IMG/VR virus record: IMGVR_UViG_3300046721_000016 | Location: 1-20,160 of that record | DNA: 20,160 nucleotides | Reading direction: 5' to 3' (one strand) | Origin: a virus | Shown here: piece by piece, positions 3,181 to 13,272 of the stretch | Numbering within the stretch: position 1 is the stretch's first letter | Layout: every line of letters starts with the position of its first letter | Program-made: the position numbers and the translations under genes | The notes under the pieces: model-generated | The model's input: the letters and a program-made list of their open reading frames with translations, nothing else | The model's database searches: none | Told to the model about the DNA's origin: nothing

Positions 3181-4497
3181 ATGGGACTAGTTTTCCGTAG
3201 TAAAGAAGAACGAGGTTCGCTTGGAACTGGCGTAAGCACGAGTCCGCTGTATGGAATTTCTTCATCTTCGGACCTGATTCCTCGCAGAATCTATAACCAG
3301 GGTTCTAGTGGCGGGGCACCCGTCACACTTGATACCGCTATGCGTAACTCCGCAGTCTGGGCTGCGATCCGAATCAGGGCCGACCTTATTTCGACGTTGC
3401 CTTGGCGAGTTTACAGCGAGCTTAATCTACCTGATGCTAAGGTGCCTTACAAGATCGATGCATCTCCCACACCACTCATGAGTGGAATTGATTTCATTCA
3501 CTTCCTGTATTCGAGTCAGGTAGAGCTGGACCGAACGGGTAATGCTATCGGGATTATTAATCAGTGGGATGAACGTACCAGGACACCGGCAGAAATTGAA
3601 CTGGTGCCGAGTTCATCGGTGGTTATCAGTGCTAAGGGCATGAATATCACCAGCTACCGGATTAACGGCATTGAGTTTGATCCGAAATTTATCTGGCATG
3701 AAAAGCAGTACACTGTTGCGGGCCTGCCTGTTGGCCTAAGTCCCGTTACGTACGCTGCTTACACGTTGGGCCAGTACAACTCCATTCAGGAATTTGCCAC
3801 TGAGTTCTTTACATCAGGGCAGGGACCACGCGCCAGCTTGCAGAATACCCAGAAGAAGATTAACGATAAAGAAGCGGCTATTGTCGCTGAATCGTGGCGT
3901 GCATCGCAGTCGATGGATGAACCTTTCATTCATGGCAATGACTGGGAATATACGCTTCTGTCTGCGCAAGGTGCATCTAATGACTGGATCGAGGGCGCAA
4001 AGCTTAACAGCGTTGACGTTGCCAGGTTCTTTAACGTTCCTGCTGACATGATTGACGCAATTATCTCGGGTGGATCTCACATCACCTATTCCAATATCAT
4101 TCAGCGAAACCTGCAATTCCTGGTCATGCATCTGGGGCCGACAATTACCCGCCGCGAGTCAAAGCTAACTGACATTCTTCCGCGTCCGAGGTTCTTTGAA
4201 TTCGACACCGACTACCTGATGCGAATGGACCCGGTAACCAGGGCTGAATGGGTTAAGACTCAGATCGATTCCCGTGCAATTACAGTCACCGAGGCACGCG
4301 CCGTATTCGGCCGCGACCCAGCAACCGACACTGACTACGAAGAATACTTCAAGGCAGGACTTGTCCACGGTAAGGCATCGGCTATGTTGCCGGGCGACCC
4401 GGAAGACCCGAATGTTAATCCTGCAATCGGCAACCAAATCGACACTGGTGGGGATAAGAAGAATCCACCGCCACCGCCTAGCGGCTCCACTCCATAA
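3181..4497 (+). CDS. Portal protein, HK97 family
   Basis: A 438-aa portal protein, the dodecameric ring at the head vertex through which DNA enters and leaves. The family signature is AMRNSAVWAAIRIRADLISTLP around residues 53-74, followed by WRVY. Next come the SPTPLMSG and 'LDRTGNA' segments and a C-terminal clip/crown part with FFNVPADMIDAI and 'QRNLQFLVMHLGPTITR'. These match the Phage_portal family (PF04860). Length is normal. The last residues are proline-rich (KKNPPPPPSGSTP) and probably flexible. It starts one base after the membrane-protein stop, and the protease gene follows after 28 bases. Confidence 0.95.
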   Translation: MGLVFRSKEERGSLGTGVSTSPLYGISSSSDLIPRRIYNQGSSGGAPVTLDTAMRNSAVWAAIRIRADLISTLPWRVYSELNLPDAKVPYKIDASPTPLMSGIDFIHFLYSSQVELDRTGNAIGIINQWDERTRTPAEIELVPSSSVVISAKGMNITSYRINGIEFDPKFIWHEKQYTVAGLPVGLSPVTYAAYTLGQYNSIQEFATEFFTSGQGPRASLQNTQKKINDKEAAIVAESWRASQSMDEPFIHGNDWEYTLLSAQGASNDWIEGAKLNSVDVARFFNVPADMIDAIISGGSHITYSNIIQRNLQFLVMHLGPTITRRESKLTDILPRPRFFEFDTDYLMRMDPVTRAEWVKTQIDSRAITVTEARAVFGRDPATDTDYEEYFKAGLVHGKASAMLPGDPEDPNVNPAIGNQIDTGGDKKNPPPPPSGSTP

Positions 4498-4525: not shown

Positions 4526-5740
4526 ATGGCTACTATTGATTTTAGTACGTGGGACGTTAACAAGGCGTGGGCGGCAGGCGCAAGCTCCGATGATCCCGCA
4601 GCATTTTACCAGGGGATTTGCGCAGCTAGGAAAGCAGGCGACCCGAAGAACCGGGACTCCTACGATCTTCCTTACCGCTATTCTCCGTCGAGTCCCCCTA
4701 ATGCCGCTGGCGTAAGGGCTGCGCTATCGATGCTTTCTACAACAGACGGACTTAAGAATAGGTCCGAAGCACAGGCAACGCTTAACGGTCTTTTCGAGCA
4801 GATTCAAACTGCGGAAAAGGGTCGTAGTGGCGCTCTTGACGATATGCGTAACTACAGGCTAGAGCATCGGCAGGAAGTTCCGGGCGGCGAGCTTCGTCGC
4901 AGGGGATTCCCGTCCGAAATGCGCGGCAAGTACACTAAGCAGGATGGCCGATCTGTCTACGAGGTTGAAGGGTACGCGACTATTTACAATCGCGGTTACG
5001 AAATGTGGGATATGGCCGGTCCGTATATGGAAGTAGTTGACCAGCATTCCCTAGACCGTTCTCTCGCGCAGACTCCCGATGTAGCGTTCTTGGTGAATCA
5101 CCTAGGCGTCGCAATGGCGCGGTCGAGGTCCCGTAATGGTAACCCGACTCTGGTCCTTCGCAGTGATACTACAGGTATGCATATCCAGAGCTGGCTGAAT
5201 GCCGAGAGGCAGGACGTTAAGGATCTGGCATCTGCCATTGACGACGGAATTGTCGATGAGATGTCCTTTGCATTCCGCATTGAGGATCATGTCTGGGATG
5301 AGGATTACACGCAGCTTACACTAAAGCAGCTTAACATTAATCGCGGTGACGTTTCCGCAGTTAACTTCGGGGCTAATCCGTTTACCAGCATTGCAGCTCG
5401 TGCTGCTGACTGGCTGGAAGATCTCGAACATATGCCGGAAGTTGTCGTTCGTGAGGCTTTCAACAGGCTGCATAGGCGCGGCGATGCCATGGTACTCGTT
5501 CCTGAAATTCGGGAAGCGGCAGAGATCGTGATTAAGCGCAATGCAGAAATGTTCGCCAATGTCGCAAAGGCACATTCAGATGCCCAGCGCGTTCTGGACG
5601 AAGCGGAAGAAGAACTTGCGTCGGCTCCTAAGCCTACTAATACTCGTTCGGCTGCCGCAGCGATGCGCGAACTTAAGGCGATTAACAAGAATTATCGTGC
5701 ACAGCTAGACCAGCTTGAACGATCCGCCGAACTTGACTAA
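4526..5740 (+). CDS. Capsid maturation (prohead) protease with extra domains
   Basis: A 404-aa protein preceded by a strong AAAGGAAA ribosome binding site. Residues about 135-292 form an HK97-type prohead serine protease domain (PF04586): YEVEGYATIYNRGY at the start, the likely catalytic His in FLVNHLG (His192), the likely catalytic Ser in DEMSFAF (Ser247), then RGDVSAVNFGANP. It would cleave scaffold and capsid N-terminal segments during head maturation. Residues 1-95 are an added domain with a 'DPKNRDSYDLPYR ... GVRAALSML' pattern. I have seen similar segments fused to phage proteases and related proteins; their role is unclear. Residues about 330-404 are Ala/Glu/Arg-rich and coiled-coil-like, possibly a scaffold-like tail. 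The structured non-coding region lies directly downstream. Confidence 0.9.
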   Translation: MATIDFSTWDVNKAWAAGASSDDPAAFYQGICAARKAGDPKNRDSYDLPYRYSPSSPPNAAGVRAALSMLSTTDGLKNRSEAQATLNGLFEQIQTAEKGRSGALDDMRNYRLEHRQEVPGGELRRRGFPSEMRGKYTKQDGRSVYEVEGYATIYNRGYEMWDMAGPYMEVVDQHSLDRSLAQTPDVAFLVNHLGVAMARSRSRNGNPTLVLRSDTTGMHIQSWLNAERQDVKDLASAIDDGIVDEMSFAFRIEDHVWDEDYTQLTLKQLNINRGDVSAVNFGANPFTSIAARAADWLEDLEHMPEVVVREAFNRLHRRGDAMVLVPEIREAAEIVIKRNAEMFANVAKAHSDAQRVLDEAEEELASAPKPTNTRSAAAAMRELKAINKNYRAQLDQLERSAELD

Positions 5741-5745
5741 TTTTA

Positions 5746-5844
5746 AAGTGGCAATCAGACCGCTTATTTATTGACGGTAATCAGACCGTCTTCCGGTGCA
5801 GATCACACCGGCTCTCCGAACGGACATACACGCAAATCAGAGCG
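5746..5844 (+). repeat. Four hairpins with ATCAGA-type loops
   Basis: ATCAGACCG occurs at 5754-5762 and 5780-5788, ATCACACCG at 5802-5810 and ATCAGAGCG at 5836-5844. In each case the last bases form the 3' arm of a hairpin with a different 5' arm: AAGTGG, GACGGT, CCGGTG and CGC. Pairing is kept while the stem sequence changes, and the loop sequence is mostly conserved. This is the pattern expected for an RNA protein-binding or regulatory element. The third hairpin departs from the rule, with loop CAGATCA. Confidence 0.55.
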
Positions 5845-5859
5845 AATGCGCGTTCAATC

Positions 5860-5886
5860 CCTTAATAGGCAAAAGGCTTATTAAGG
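5860..5886 (+). terminator. Strong hairpin 34 bases before the capsid start
   Basis: CCTTAATAGGC (5860-5870) pairs with GCTTATTAAGG (5876-5886) across an AAAAG loop. All 11 pairs form, one of them G-U. The next bases are TTTAATT, only a weak U-tract. It could be a partial terminator or attenuator, an RNase processing site, or a 5' stabiliser of the capsid mRNA. The fold is clear; the role is uncertain. Confidence 0.4.
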
Positions 5887-5919
5887 TTTAATTCCAAATT
5901 ACGGAAGGTATTCGCTCTT

Positions 5920-7374
5920 ATGAATATTAAGGAACTTGTCGCTTCCATGGAGATTGAGCTGGAAGCGGCTCAGCAGCGGGAAATGCGCGCCCGCAAGGAG
6001 ATGGAGCTTATTCTGGCTACCACTCAGCAGGAAATGCGCACCGACCTGACTAACGATGAGGATGTACGCTTTGACTCGCTCAAGGAAACCGTACAGAATT
6101 CTCGCGTTGATCAGGCGTCCATTCAGCGTAAGCTGGCTAAGGCACGTCAGGTACAGGCTGATGAAGCTCGTACCGATGATGACCTGACCCATGCTACTAC
6201 GCCTGCGGGACTTCCGCAGCGTGACGCTACAACTCAGCGTGCCAGCGTAAGCGTCGGCCACGAGGAAACCACTTATCACAAGGGCAATGACCCGACTGGT
6301 AAGATGTTCCTGAATGACGTTGTTCGCCAGTTCACGACTAACGACGCTCGCGCCGGTGGTCGTCTACAGCAGCACATGCGCGAGGAACAGATTAATCGCG
6401 CCAATGCGGGTATGGAACTGCGTGTCGGTGAAGTCGGAACTTCGGCTTTCTCCGGTCTGGTTGTTCCCCAGTACCTCATTGACATGGTTGCACCGGCAGT
6501 TGCCAACCTGCGTCCATTCGCAGATATGTGTAACTCGCATCCTCTGCCTGCTTCGGGTATGTCGCTGAACATCTCGCGTATTACAACCGCTTCGGGTACC
6601 GCACTACAGGCATCAGAATCTACCGCCGTCCAGGCAACGCCTATGGACGATACTCTGCTGACCTTCAATGTGCAGACTGCTGCTGGACAGCAGACTATTT
6701 CACGCCAGGCAATTGAGCGTGGAACTGGTATTGAAGACGTTGTTATGCAGGATCTTTTCCGTCAGTACGCAACTAGCCTTGACAGCACTCTGCTGAACCA
6801 GGCTTCTACTGGTCTTGACGCAGTGGGTAACGCTACTACTGCCATTACCGTAGCAGACGTGCCGACGATTTATTCCGCGATTATGGGTGCGGCATCTCAG
6901 AGTGACACCGCTACTCGCGGGCTGGCGCATCCGACTCACGTCGTTATGCACCCTCGCCGCTGGTTCTGGCTTCAGTCGCTTCTGACTAGCACCTGGCCTG
7001 TGTTTACTCAGCCAGGCATCGAGCCTGCTGCCCAGGCTGCGGGTGCTAATAAGGCTACTCCGTATAACCAGGGTATGAGTGGTGTCATGCCTAATGGTAT
7101 GCAGGTTGTAACCGACGCGAACGTGACTACTGTTGCTCTTGCCGGTGCCCCTACGGGTGGTACCCAGGACCACATTTTCGTGGTTCCGCAGCAGGAATGT
7201 CACCTTTGGGAAGATGCCGGGGCTCCTGTTTACATCAGGGCTGAACAGCCTGCGGCAGCATCTCTTGGAGTGCTCCTAGTTGTGTACGGTTACTTCGCCT
7301 ACACTTACCAGCGTTACGGGCTGGCAATTCAGAAGATCAACGGTTCTGCCCTGGCAGCACCTTCGGGATTCTAA
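5920..7374 (+). CDS. Major capsid protein, HK97 fold
   Basis: A 484-aa major head protein. Residues 1-95 are a charged helical region (MNIKELVASMEIELEAAQQR...), the typical delta/scaffold domain removed by the protease in HK97-like phages. From about residue 120, the sequence follows the Phage_capsid family: FLNDVVRQFTTND, GLVVPQYLIDMVAP, 'RPFADMCNSHPLP', DDTLLTFNVQTAAGQQTISRQAIERG, VMHPRRWFWLQSLL and a C-terminal strand ending YGLAIQKINGSA. Conservation at AGQQ.ISRQA..RG is characteristic of this group. Its ribosome binding site is GGAAGG, 11 bases upstream. Placement after the portal and protease confirms the call. Structured non-coding regions lie on both sides, so this highly expressed gene may have its own control and mRNA processing. 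Confidence 0.93.
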   Translation: MNIKELVASMEIELEAAQQREMRARKEMELILATTQQEMRTDLTNDEDVRFDSLKETVQNSRVDQASIQRKLAKARQVQADEARTDDDLTHATTPAGLPQRDATTQRASVSVGHEETTYHKGNDPTGKMFLNDVVRQFTTNDARAGGRLQQHMREEQINRANAGMELRVGEVGTSAFSGLVVPQYLIDMVAPAVANLRPFADMCNSHPLPASGMSLNISRITTASGTALQASESTAVQATPMDDTLLTFNVQTAAGQQTISRQAIERGTGIEDVVMQDLFRQYATSLDSTLLNQASTGLDAVGNATTAITVADVPTIYSAIMGAASQSDTATRGLAHPTHVVMHPRRWFWLQSLLTSTWPVFTQPGIEPAAQAAGANKATPYNQGMSGVMPNGMQVVTDANVTTVALAGAPTGGTQDHIFVVPQQECHLWEDAGAPVYIRAEQPAAASLGVLLVVYGYFAYTYQRYGLAIQKINGSALAAPSGF

Positions 7375-7456: not shown

Positions 7457-7981
7457 ATGAAAATCATGTTTTGTTATGCTGATGTTCCCGATGCTAGATC
7501 GGCCGCAGCAATTCTCAAGTACGCATCTCAAGCAGAATTCGTAGAAACTCCTGGCCTATTCGGATACAACGAAGCTATCGCATCCCGGTGGGGCCAAGAC
7601 GATCTAGTCGTTATCGAGGGTGACAAAGAAATCACCTCAGACACAACACCATCCTTTGAGAATTGCGATGAACCGTGGTGCAGCTACGGCTATTACAATT
7701 ACCCGGAACCTTACCGAGCTTATTGCAGTACAGGTCTTGGGTGTACTAAGTTCTCTCTCGCTTTGCAGCGAGGGATCGATGTATCAACATTTTTCCGGCG
7801 TGACCTGCCAGGAATGATTTGCCCCGATTGTAACGGAGCCGGTTGCTGGCGGTACCTGGATACACGAATAGCATTCGCAATTCTCGCTAGCTGTATTACA
7901 TTCTCGCCACACGTTCACGGTGAAGTTATTCACCACCATACATATTCGCCCGATTGGGCAATTCTAAGAGGCTTGGAATAA
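7457..7981 (+). CDS. Possible glycosyltransferase-like protein
   Basis: A 174-aa protein with an alpha/beta-looking N-terminal half ending in a strand with DDLVVIEGDKEI (residues about 49-60). This lies where family A glycosyltransferases carry acidic metal-binding residues. It continues with CDEPWCSYGYY and STGLGCTKFSLALQR. It then has a CPDCNGAGC cysteine cluster (about 122-130) and a His-rich end (HVHGEVIHHH, about 154-163). The 'acidic strand, C.EPWC.YPY, GLGCT+F...L, H.H...H' order resembles a family of short actinophage proteins that I associate with glycosyltransferase-like folds. No function is proven. The ribosome binding site is weak and sits in a hairpin. Its place after the capsid gene would fit modification of virion proteins. 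Confidence 0.45.
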   Translation: MKIMFCYADVPDARSAAAILKYASQAEFVETPGLFGYNEAIASRWGQDDLVVIEGDKEITSDTTPSFENCDEPWCSYGYYNYPEPYRAYCSTGLGCTKFSLALQRGIDVSTFFRRDLPGMICPDCNGAGCWRYLDTRIAFAILASCITFSPHVHGEVIHHHTYSPDWAILRGLE

Positions 7982-10939: not shown

Positions 10940-10959
10940 TAACAGGGAGGGCAGTGCTC

Positions 10960-13272
10960 GTGGCAGTTACCTATGATGCCGTAGGACCCGGCGCAACGGG
11001 CAAGGCGTGGACTACCAGCCCCGGTACCTGGGTGCATGTCAATAACGGCAATGCTATTATCGTCGCCCTCACAATCTTTACTGGAGGCGCTAATACCGTC
11101 ACAGGGGTTACCTATGGCGGGGTTTCGCTAAACCTGCTAGGCTATCAGACTAGTGACGGTGGCGGTGCCGGTGGCGTCGTCTTCTACGGGTTGGCTGGAC
11201 CCACAGTTCCTACAGGCAGTAACACGGTTTCAGTCTCGACTTCCGAAGCTAATAACCACAATGGCGGTTCAATCAGCCTTGCCGGGGTTGGCTCTTTCGG
11301 AACGCTTACCAGCACGCAGGGTACTGGCGTAACCTCACTCACGGTTTCCGTGCCAGGAACCACGTCCGGTGGAATGATTGTCACGGCGGTTTGCTCTGGT
11401 AGTATCGGAACTTATTCAGGTACAAACAGCGTTACGATTCGGTGGCAGCTCAGCAGTTCTAGTAGTAGTGGTGCTGACAACGGAACTGAAGGTACTGTAG
11501 CTTCTGCGGGGGGCGCTCAGACGGTAGGTTTCAGTAGTACCGCTTCGGGCGATGACTGGGGAATTGTTGCAGTTGAGGCACTGCCTTCTGCTGGTGGTAC
11601 CAGCACTGTTATGCCCCAGCAACGTTTCAGAAAGTCTAGGGGCAGGAATAACCAGCGCCGACGCCAGCAAGTTATGCAGGTCGGTGCCGCTTCGGCAGAC
11701 GTTACTGGCACGGGAAGTTCTGCGACTAAAAAGCCTGCCGCTTCCGGCACTGGCACAGAAGAATTCGCAGCTACCGGCGCACCTCGCGCTAAGAAGCCTG
11801 CTGCGAGCGGTACGGGAGTTGAGCAATTTACAGCTACCGGCAGTTCTTCGATAAAGAAGCCCGCTGCATCTGGTACAGGCATCGAAGAATTCACCGCTAC
11901 GGGCGCACCTCGCGCTAAGAAGCCTGCGGCCAATGGAACTGGAACTAACTTCTGGGCTACTGGCAGTTCTTCGATAAAGAAGCCCGCTGCATCTGGTAGC
12001 GGGACTGAGACATTTACAGCGACAGGTTCATCGAACGTTAAGAAGCCAACAGCAGCCGGAACTGGAACAAACTTCTGGGGTTCTGGTAGTTCAAACGTTA
12101 AGAAGCCTGCGGCTAATGGAACAGGCGTAGAAGTATTCACCGCGACGGGTGCTCCGCGTGCTAAGAAGCCCGCAGCTAATGGCACTGGTACGATCTTTAA
12201 CGGTTCAGGCAGCGTAAGCATTAAGAAGCCTGCGGCTAGCGGCACGGGTACAGAAACATTTACCGCTACAGGTTCGTCAAATGTAAAGAAGCCTAGCGCT
12301 TCTGGCACTGGTTCAATTCCAGGCATTTCGGGAACTGGCAGCGCGAGCATTAAGAAGCCTGCCGCATCTGGTACAGGCGTCGAGGCGTTCACGGCGACAG
12401 GTTCGTCTAACGTCAAGAAGCCTAGCGCTTCTGGAACAGGTACAAACTTCTGGGCTACGGGCAGTTCGGCACTCAAGAAGCCTGCTGCGTCGGGTACCGG
12501 CGTCGAAACCTTTACCGCAAACGGTAGTAGTTCTATCAAGAAAATTGCTGCGAGCGGTACCGGGACTAACACTCCCGCAGGATTCACGGGTACCGGCCAG
12601 ATTACCTGTAAAAAGATTAACGTTTCTGGTGCTGGCGTCGAAGTCTACACGGCTACCGCAGCCGTTAACGCGAAGAAGCCTGTAATTTCGGGCACTGGCT
12701 CGATTCCGGGCAACTCTGCTACTGGCAGCGCGACGGTCAAGAAGCCTAGCGCAAGCGGTACAGGTTTGGCTGGTGCTATCGGCAGCGGTTCTGCCACTGT
12801 TAAGAAGCCAGCCGCTAACGGTACGGGCGTTGAGCAGTTTACTGCAACTGGGAGTAGCAGGGCTAAGAAGCCTGCTGCGAACGGAACAGGCAACGCGGGC
12901 GGGCTGGCCGGAACTGGTTCGGTAACAGCTAAGAAGCCTGCGCCTCATGGTACGGGCAGCGAATCCTGGTCTGGTGCTGGCGGCGTTATCGTCAAAAAGG
13001 TTACATTGCTGGCTAGCGGATCTCAGCAGTTCTTGGGTTCTGGTAGTGCGAGGCTTAACAAGCCGCAAATCTCCGCGATTTCACTGTCGTTTGGAACAGG
13101 CACACAGGGGGTTGTTCATCCCTATCATGCAATTGTTGCAGGCAGTGGTGAAAAGGGCGCAACTGTAACCCACGGTGCTAAATCCCATACGACCGTGACC
13201 GAAACAGATAAGGCAAGGGGCGCTGTGTCCGGTAAAGTTAAGACATCGAGTAAGGTAGCGGGTGAGACATAA
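10960..13272 (+). CDS. Large KKP-repeat virion protein
   Basis: A 770-aa protein. I prefer the GTG at 10960 over the one at 10954 because AGGGAGG (10944-10950) is then 9 bases away instead of 3. Residues 1-205 form a beta-rich domain (MAVTYDAVGPGATGKAWTTS...). A basic linker follows, with FRKSRGRNNQRRRQQ. From about residue 245 to 700 there are about 20-22 units of 17-22 residues, each built as 'TGSSsiKKPAASGTG' plus a variable 3-8 residues such as TNFWA or VETFTA. The last 70 residues are non-repetitive. Such repeats probably form a long beta fibre or stalk with regularly spaced lysine pairs. Similar GTG-rich repeats occur in actinophage minor virion proteins. Location suggests a head fibre; a tail role is possible. 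Confidence 0.75.
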   Translation: MAVTYDAVGPGATGKAWTTSPGTWVHVNNGNAIIVALTIFTGGANTVTGVTYGGVSLNLLGYQTSDGGGAGGVVFYGLAGPTVPTGSNTVSVSTSEANNHNGGSISLAGVGSFGTLTSTQGTGVTSLTVSVPGTTSGGMIVTAVCSGSIGTYSGTNSVTIRWQLSSSSSSGADNGTEGTVASAGGAQTVGFSSTASGDDWGIVAVEALPSAGGTSTVMPQQRFRKSRGRNNQRRRQQVMQVGAASADVTGTGSSATKKPAASGTGTEEFAATGAPRAKKPAASGTGVEQFTATGSSSIKKPAASGTGIEEFTATGAPRAKKPAANGTGTNFWATGSSSIKKPAASGSGTETFTATGSSNVKKPTAAGTGTNFWGSGSSNVKKPAANGTGVEVFTATGAPRAKKPAANGTGTIFNGSGSVSIKKPAASGTGTETFTATGSSNVKKPSASGTGSIPGISGTGSASIKKPAASGTGVEAFTATGSSNVKKPSASGTGTNFWATGSSALKKPAASGTGVETFTANGSSSIKKIAASGTGTNTPAGFTGTGQITCKKINVSGAGVEVYTATAAVNAKKPVISGTGSIPGNSATGSATVKKPSASGTGLAGAIGSGSATVKKPAANGTGVEQFTATGSSRAKKPAANGTGNAGGLAGTGSVTAKKPAPHGTGSESWSGAGGVIVKKVTLLASGSQQFLGSGSARLNKPQISAISLSFGTGTQGVVHPYHAIVAGSGEKGATVTHGAKSHTTVTETDKARGAVSGKVKTSSKVAGET
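11701..13060 (+). repeat. Coding tandem repeats (KKP units)
   Basis: About 20-22 repeats of 51-66 bases encode the KKP units. Most copies differ at synonymous sites, but some are almost identical. A 37-base stretch is identical at 11839-11875 and 11962-11998, 123 bases apart. Other copies sharing GCACCTCGCGCTAAGAAGCC lie near 11780 and 11907. This points to past unit duplication or slippage and possible length variation between related phages. Confidence 0.85.

Follow-up and report, generated by a model that had tools for sequence, protein, structure and literature searches.

The capsid locus and its relatives

The window analysed here, meaning the whole 20,160-base stretch of an IMG/VR virus record, has the gene content of a tailed dsDNA phage. 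The terminase (1262-2908) and portal (3181-4497) genes are followed by that of the prohead (capsid maturation) protease (4526-5740, + strand; Pfam PF04586 Peptidase_S78; PHROG head maturation protease) and, after a gap of 179 bases, by the major capsid protein (MCP) gene (5920-7374, + strand; PHROG 2263, E 6e-53; Pfam PF25209 Phage_capsid_4). The HK97 gp5 profile matches the window MCP weakly (E ~0.007), and the AlphaFold model of the protein has a mean pLDDT of 49.8 and was used for its confident N-terminal helices only. Head-tail and then tail genes lie downstream. A 174-aa ORF with a CPDCNGAGC motif directly 3' of the MCP gene (7457-7981) is found in the closest relatives only and has no match in Pfam or PHROG. 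In the tail region, a 772-aa ORF (10954-13272) encodes a degenerate repeat protein with many ~20-codon repeats (GTG...ATGSSxxKKPAASGTG), which are visible as direct DNA repeats too.

Relatives were collected by MCP searches, which found first 43 and later 80 loci in viral contigs; GTDB genomes contributed 48. Those with names are nearly all actinobacterial (Streptomyces, Frankia, Amycolatopsis, Spongiactinospora, Micromonosporaceae and others). The window's own clade has MCP identities of 74-100%, and the farther hairpin-bearing relatives ~40-56%. Neither the leader nor the whole window gave a match as a DNA query against phage records. By a sequence-only comparison of neighbouring genes, terminase, portal, protease and MCP are the only genes common to the hairpin-bearing loci within reach.

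Tandem hairpins upstream of the MCP gene

An earlier sequence-only reading had placed four hairpins at 5746-5844, between the protease and MCP genes. We find all four at these positions on the + strand, and all are present in the minimum-energy fold of the window. H1 (5746-5765) is AAGTGG-CAATCAGA-CCGCTT, or AAGUGG-CAAUCAGA-CCGCUU as RNA. H2 (5773-5790) can be written GACGGT-AATCAG-ACCGTC or, equally, GACGG-UAAUCAGA-CCGUC. H3 (5793-5811), CCGGUG-CAGAUCA-CACCGG, carries a 7-nt loop variant, NNGAUCA. H4 has the core CGC-AAATCAGA-GCG (5831-5844; RNA loop AAAUCAGA) and an outer stem, CAU/AUG plus GAACG/CGUUC (5818-5855), that is an alternative to a long-range helix described below; it is also part of the minimum-energy folds of two relatives, L007 and L010.

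Three elements were absent from the earlier reading, namely a fifth hairpin in the same gap (H5, CCUUAAUA...UAUUAAGG, 5860-5886, + strand), a hairpin within the coding sequence of the protease, in its 3' part (H0, 5569-5584, + strand), and a segment at 5910-5917 that is complementary to 5840-5847. H0, GGCA-CATTCAGA-TGCC, belongs to the same loop family and turned up in an unbiased scan. It is found at the same place in L003, L004, L007, L009, L010 and L011 (loop CAYUCAGA), and the stem of its counterpart in L055/L056 covaries (CCGGC/GCCGG versus CTGGC/GCCAG).

In the seven sequences of the window's clade, 97.1% of the cells pair. H1, H2 and H3 are paired in 100% of cells, with compensatory changes at four of the six pairs in both H1 and H3 and one compensated pair in H2. 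The H1 stem AAGUGG/CCGCUU is replaced by CCGAUGA/UCAUCGG in L012, and the H3 stem CCGGUG/CACCGG by UGCUGGUA/UACCAGCA or AUUGGCG/CGCCAAU in relatives, among which the H3 loop reads CAGAUCA, AUGAUCA or CUGAUCA. The core of H4 is invariant and its outer stem has a compensated pair (AU/GC/GU). In H5, 94.6% of cells are paired, with compensatory change at one pair. Kissing of the H3 loop (GAUC) with other loops was considered and rejected, the loop CAGAUCA of the window and L007 being without the needed UGAU.

Conservation of loops and covariation of stems

The folding energy of the region is mildly unusual (z -1.75 for 5720-5870 and -2.1 for 5741-5850), and a z of about -2 is weak as proof by itself. 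At least three hairpins with a stem length of at least 5 occurred in 290 of 5,000 shuffled sequences. None of 10,000 dinucleotide shuffles contained three 8-nt loops that share a core and are each closed by a stem of at least three pairs; the maximum was two. The shared loop is thus the unusual part, since shuffled sequences yield such hairpins but never three same-core loops.

The sequence-only reading had taken different stems around a kept loop as a sign of selection on RNA structure, and comparison with relatives strongly supports this. In the window's clade the loops are kept and 11 pairs are compensated, against 3.5 after shuffling and 0-2 with the partner strand slid. The covariation score of 44 aligned family hairpins, 0.68, exceeds those of the shuffled (0.19) and slid (0.05-0.18) controls; these 44 were chosen as stem-flanked, so that the clade covariation and the following motif count are the less biased tests. 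Occurrences of the motif NANUCANA were counted without preselecting stems, a stem being at least three pairs. On the sense strand of the leaders, 79 of 94 occurrences (in 23 kb) sit on stems, versus 18 of 170 (in 887 kb) elsewhere; the minus strand of the leaders has seven occurrences, none on a stem. The density of the motif is ~20-fold higher in leaders than elsewhere. The hairpin element is a sense-strand specific RNA element.

These data also bear on the weakest alternative, that of a packaging, recombination or replication site read as DNA. Inverted repeats occur in DNA too, but the G-U-compatible steps in the stems (UG/UA in H1; CG/UG/UA in H3), the sense-strand specificity and the attachment to one gene make such a reading most improbable. 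A CRISPR/SRU-type decoy was rejected because the stems vary freely.

Distribution of the hairpin family

The consensus loop of the family is N-A-N-U-C-A-N-A, and C-A-G-A-Y-S-N-C in one large, well-supported Streptomyces/Frankia-type clade. Hairpins are arranged in tandem on unrelated stems, three or four in the window leader and two to five across the family. In the MCP tree, at least one hairpin precedes 69 of the 87 genes of one clade (at least two in 50), and none of the 28 members outside that clade has one. The sequence-only reading had suggested a search for the family in other intergenic regions of the genome. When 22 whole records (up to 96 kb) were scanned with a covariance model, nearly all matches at E<0.05 lay at the MCP leader, in records of 60-96 kb too; the L071 record has one weaker match ~130 bases from its leader match. 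H0, inside the protease gene, is a related hairpin beyond the leader. The element is one of the RNA strand, with two to five tandem hairpins, conserved loops and covarying stems, and it has one genomic place, before the MCP gene.

Further apparent loop codes on paired stems were seen in L113 (GGCCUAUGAU/GGGCUUUGAU), L087 (CAGAGCAGA, twice), L079 (AGCUCACA, twice), L104 (CGAUCAGC) and L061 (CACCUCUGA).

Complementarity between hairpins and the ribosome-binding site

The MCP gene has a Shine-Dalgarno (SD)-like GGAAGG at 5903-5908 (+ strand), 12 bases before the start codon. The spacer between the two contains AUUCGCUC (5910-5917, + strand), which is complementary over 8 bp to GAGCGAAU (5840-5847, + strand) in all seven sequences of the window's clade. 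The 5' strand overlaps the 3' half of H4, and H5 lies between both strands. The predicted helix would cover the spacer before the start codon and compete with H4; being invariant in the seven sequences, it is without covariation of its own. RNAalifold prefers this helix over H4 on the clade, and single-sequence folds pick either, the two folds differing by about -1 to +8 kcal/mol. In the model, the SD is only slightly more or less accessible in one state than in the other, and in the window the difference is opposite in sign (0.11 versus 0.18). The start codon of the window also lies within a local hairpin, GGUAUUC-GCUCUUAU-GAAUAUU (5907-5928), and a start-codon hairpin is seen in many type-B prophage leaders as well (CGAGC-CAUGAC-GCUCG).

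The complementarity is more extensive in relatives. In L003, L004, L005, L009 and L011, 12 bases that include the H4 loop, AUCAGAGCGAAU, are complementary to AUUCGCUCUGAU, which extends into the start codon; L012 retains 10 of the 12 bases and the window the 8-bp core. Compared with shuffled sequences, the hairpin-to-start duplex has p 0.005-0.02 in these six relatives and is not significant in the window itself (p 0.134). In the CAGAUC clade, CGAUCUACCGG beside the SD is complementary, with one mismatch, to the 5' half of the hairpins (CCGGCAGAUCG), and L071 has a perfect 9-mer complement, CCGGCAGUC/GACUGCCGG. For such complements, only 27.5% of the hairpin-bearing leaders reach p<0.05 against shuffles, these being related leaders and not independent. 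Many leaders, then, have near the SD or start codon a segment that matches part of a hairpin and its loop by complementarity, and the predicted pairing at the ribosome-binding site (RBS) would exclude the hairpin and vice versa.

The RBS-side segment follows the loop type: AGAUC goes with GAUCU in 14 cases, AGAUG with CAUCU in nine, and UCA loops with UGACU/UCUGA in 11. True cross-matches are absent, as the four apparent ones are in leaders with both loop types; in addition, a UCA-type match occurs in one of the AGAUC leaders. About half of the hairpin-bearing leaders have a recognisable RBS-side complement and the other half are without one; for this reason, and because the sequences are related, the evidence from the tracking of loop and anti-loop segments is good but not independent. 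A riboswitch-like platform would have two folds that exclude each other, with the RBS covered in one; here both are predicted and close in energy, and the complementarity tracks the loop type.

Hairpins with another loop in mycobacteriophages

The same design with another loop was seen in mycobacteriophages, the MCPs of which are ~27-31% identical. Nine of the ten records inspected (Pound, Baka, Lucky2013, MiaZeal, Ariel, ThreeRngTarjay, Typha, Bipper and WXIN; loci L045, L047, L048 and L185-L190) have two hairpins before the MCP gene with the loop UGGCACU on different stems, such as CCCC/GGGG, AACCCUC/GAGGGUU, CCCCCUUU/AAAGGGGG and UCGUCG/CGACGG. The one record of the ten without them is prophiGD43A-5 (L046). 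Downstream segments complementary to these hairpins are significant in Typha (p 0.002), Bipper (p 0.016) and Pound (p 0.03), but not in Lucky2013 and WXIN. The capsid leaders of cluster J mycobacteriophages share with the window's family the identical-loop hairpins on varying stems before the MCP gene, and differ in the loop itself. The cluster J genome paper describes introns, and its text contains neither 'hairpin' nor 'stem-loop' (PMC3706429). The annotated MCP start of Baka, MiaZeal and Ariel directly follows the hairpins or is close to them; as it precedes the start used in Pound and Lucky2013, the annotation may have been placed too far upstream.

A putative translational switch for capsid synthesis

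The stretch 5741-5919 is probably, though far from certainly, a structured mRNA leader that would act in cis as a translational switch for the MCP gene, with loops that are read by a protein. Of the two roles offered in the sequence-only reading, control of capsid production is the better supported, by the position upstream of the MCP gene and by the anti-loop segments that track the loops; mRNA decay explains the conserved loop less well. In the proposed mechanism, binding of the protein would stabilise the hairpins and so alter how readily ribosomes reach the MCP start, and the several hairpin copies may allow cooperative or graded binding. We slightly prefer a scheme in which the bound state frees the RBS, because the alternative helix consumes the last hairpin; repression would be the alternative.

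A device made of RNA only, in which the loops pair with the RBS-side segment (as a thermosensor, by kinetic switching during transcription, or by a translational coupling that senses ribosomes as they leave the protease gene) and no protein ligand takes part, would account for the anti-loop segments that track the loop type and for two folds so close in energy. The location of H0 inside the protease gene is also compatible with it, as translating ribosomes would open this hairpin. However, the loops are kept in lineages without the complement (L093, L122, L018 and L073), and two to five copies exceed what a single RBS segment could bind by pairing. It is for these reasons that we take the loops to be read by a protein, and we regard the RNA-only device as unlikely.

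Less likely still is a role in mRNA processing or stability, in which the array would protect or mature the 5' end of the MCP mRNA (through RNase III/E/J sites and barriers) and raise expression far above that of the neighbours. The site, between a protease gene of low need and the most-needed virion protein, and the stable stems would suit such a role. For a barrier or dsRNA cleavage site, however, stems are what is required, and neither an invariant UCA loop on stems of free sequence nor the anti-loop segments would be explained.

Control of transcription, by antitermination (put-/boxB-like) or attenuation, with RNA polymerase or an N-like protein as the reader of the hairpins, is in our view improbable. 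Sites of the boxB type have fixed loops and free stems, which the hairpins here resemble. But the element is found midway through the late operon, essentially only before the MCP gene, and the anti-segments are at the RBS; moreover, no U-run follows any of the loop hairpins H1-H4, as read from the sequence, so that the GC-rich hairpin plus U-run of an intrinsic terminator or attenuator is absent.

If the leader is a protein-read translational switch, the reader is most likely phage-encoded, and could be the MCP, the protease or another late protein; that the loop codes differ between phage lineages points the same way. On trees of 61 proteins, the loop class changes four times for the protease and five times for the MCP; a quick portal tree also gave five changes, and these numbers are too similar to single out a partner. 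The marginal difference comes from L060, L068 and L098, where the loop type sides with the protease gene upstream and not with the MCP, which argues weakly against the MCP as the ligand. As the leader lies between the protease and MCP genes, linkage alone could give the congruence of loop classes. More tentatively, and with well below even likelihood, we propose that in HK97-type tailed phages the MCP (with its N-terminal scaffold helices) or the protease is itself the sequence-specific RNA-binding reader that flips the switch at the MCP start, coupling shell-protein synthesis to assembly, and that its recognition has diverged among actinobacteriophages into several loop codes (UCANA, CAGAYSNC and UGGCACU).

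Relation to known RNA operators

A tailed dsDNA phage has to produce capsid subunits by the hundred for each head and to match their amount to those of protease, portal and scaffold; to our knowledge translational operators for capsid proportioning are well known only in RNA phages. The scaffolding protein of P22, a capsid-assembly protein of a tailed dsDNA phage, is autoregulated post-transcriptionally, as we propose for the capsid protein here; we know of no RNA element of such a kind in that system.

The element would act like the known hairpin operators (T4 gene 43; MS2, Qbeta), yet shares their defining features only in part. With the coat protein operators of MS2 and Qbeta it has in common a small hairpin with fixed loop residues, a stem that is free if paired (as the covariation counts indicate), several operator-like hairpins, a virion protein as the possible ligand and translational control as the proposed outcome. 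In MS2/Qbeta the replicase start codon is part of the operator, and the gene repressed by the coat protein is thus not its own (PMC10610835). The window hairpins, in contrast, precede the capsid gene itself, number two to five in tandem in this family and belong to a tailed dsDNA phage with an HK97-type capsid; the start codon is not contained in a loop hairpin, as these end ~75 bases before the MCP start at 5920. The autoregulatory operator of T4/RB69 gene 43, also from a dsDNA phage, is a single hairpin bound by DNA polymerase (PMC3014915). In both systems a hairpin with a conserved loop precedes the RBS of the gene under control (here, proposed control), whereas the loop differs and the array and the anti-loop segment are features of the window only.

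Rfam 15 at the gathering cut-off gave no match in the whole window, 12 related loci and eight more, and a permissive scan returned chance-level snoRNA and lncRNA matches only. Our search of the literature (open-licence papers) found no description of such capsid leaders. If our interpretation is correct, the hairpins form an RNA family that is dedicated to the capsid gene, widespread among actinobacterial phages and not yet listed, and that may yield new orthogonal RNA-protein pairs. The family would include culturable mycobacteriophages and Streptomyces prophages, and the proposal is thus directly testable.

Other candidate capsid leaders

A different, very conserved structured leader was seen ~110 bases upstream of the MCP start in L136, L137, L139-L149, L151, L152, L154, L156 and L160, which are Streptomyces, Nonomuraea, Thermomonospora and related prophages with MCPs ~41-50% identical. 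Its alignment (A4) gives a branched fold with a CCAYCC/GGRUGG arm that shows compensatory changes, and it is a second candidate for a capsid-leader RNA; there was no Rfam match in the two loci scanned. Lastly, a repeated leader, CCGGARC...CGGARC...CACCACC, lies upstream of the MCP gene in other distant relatives (L023, L030, L031, L033, L035-L038 and L040), and may be a further capsid-leader element.
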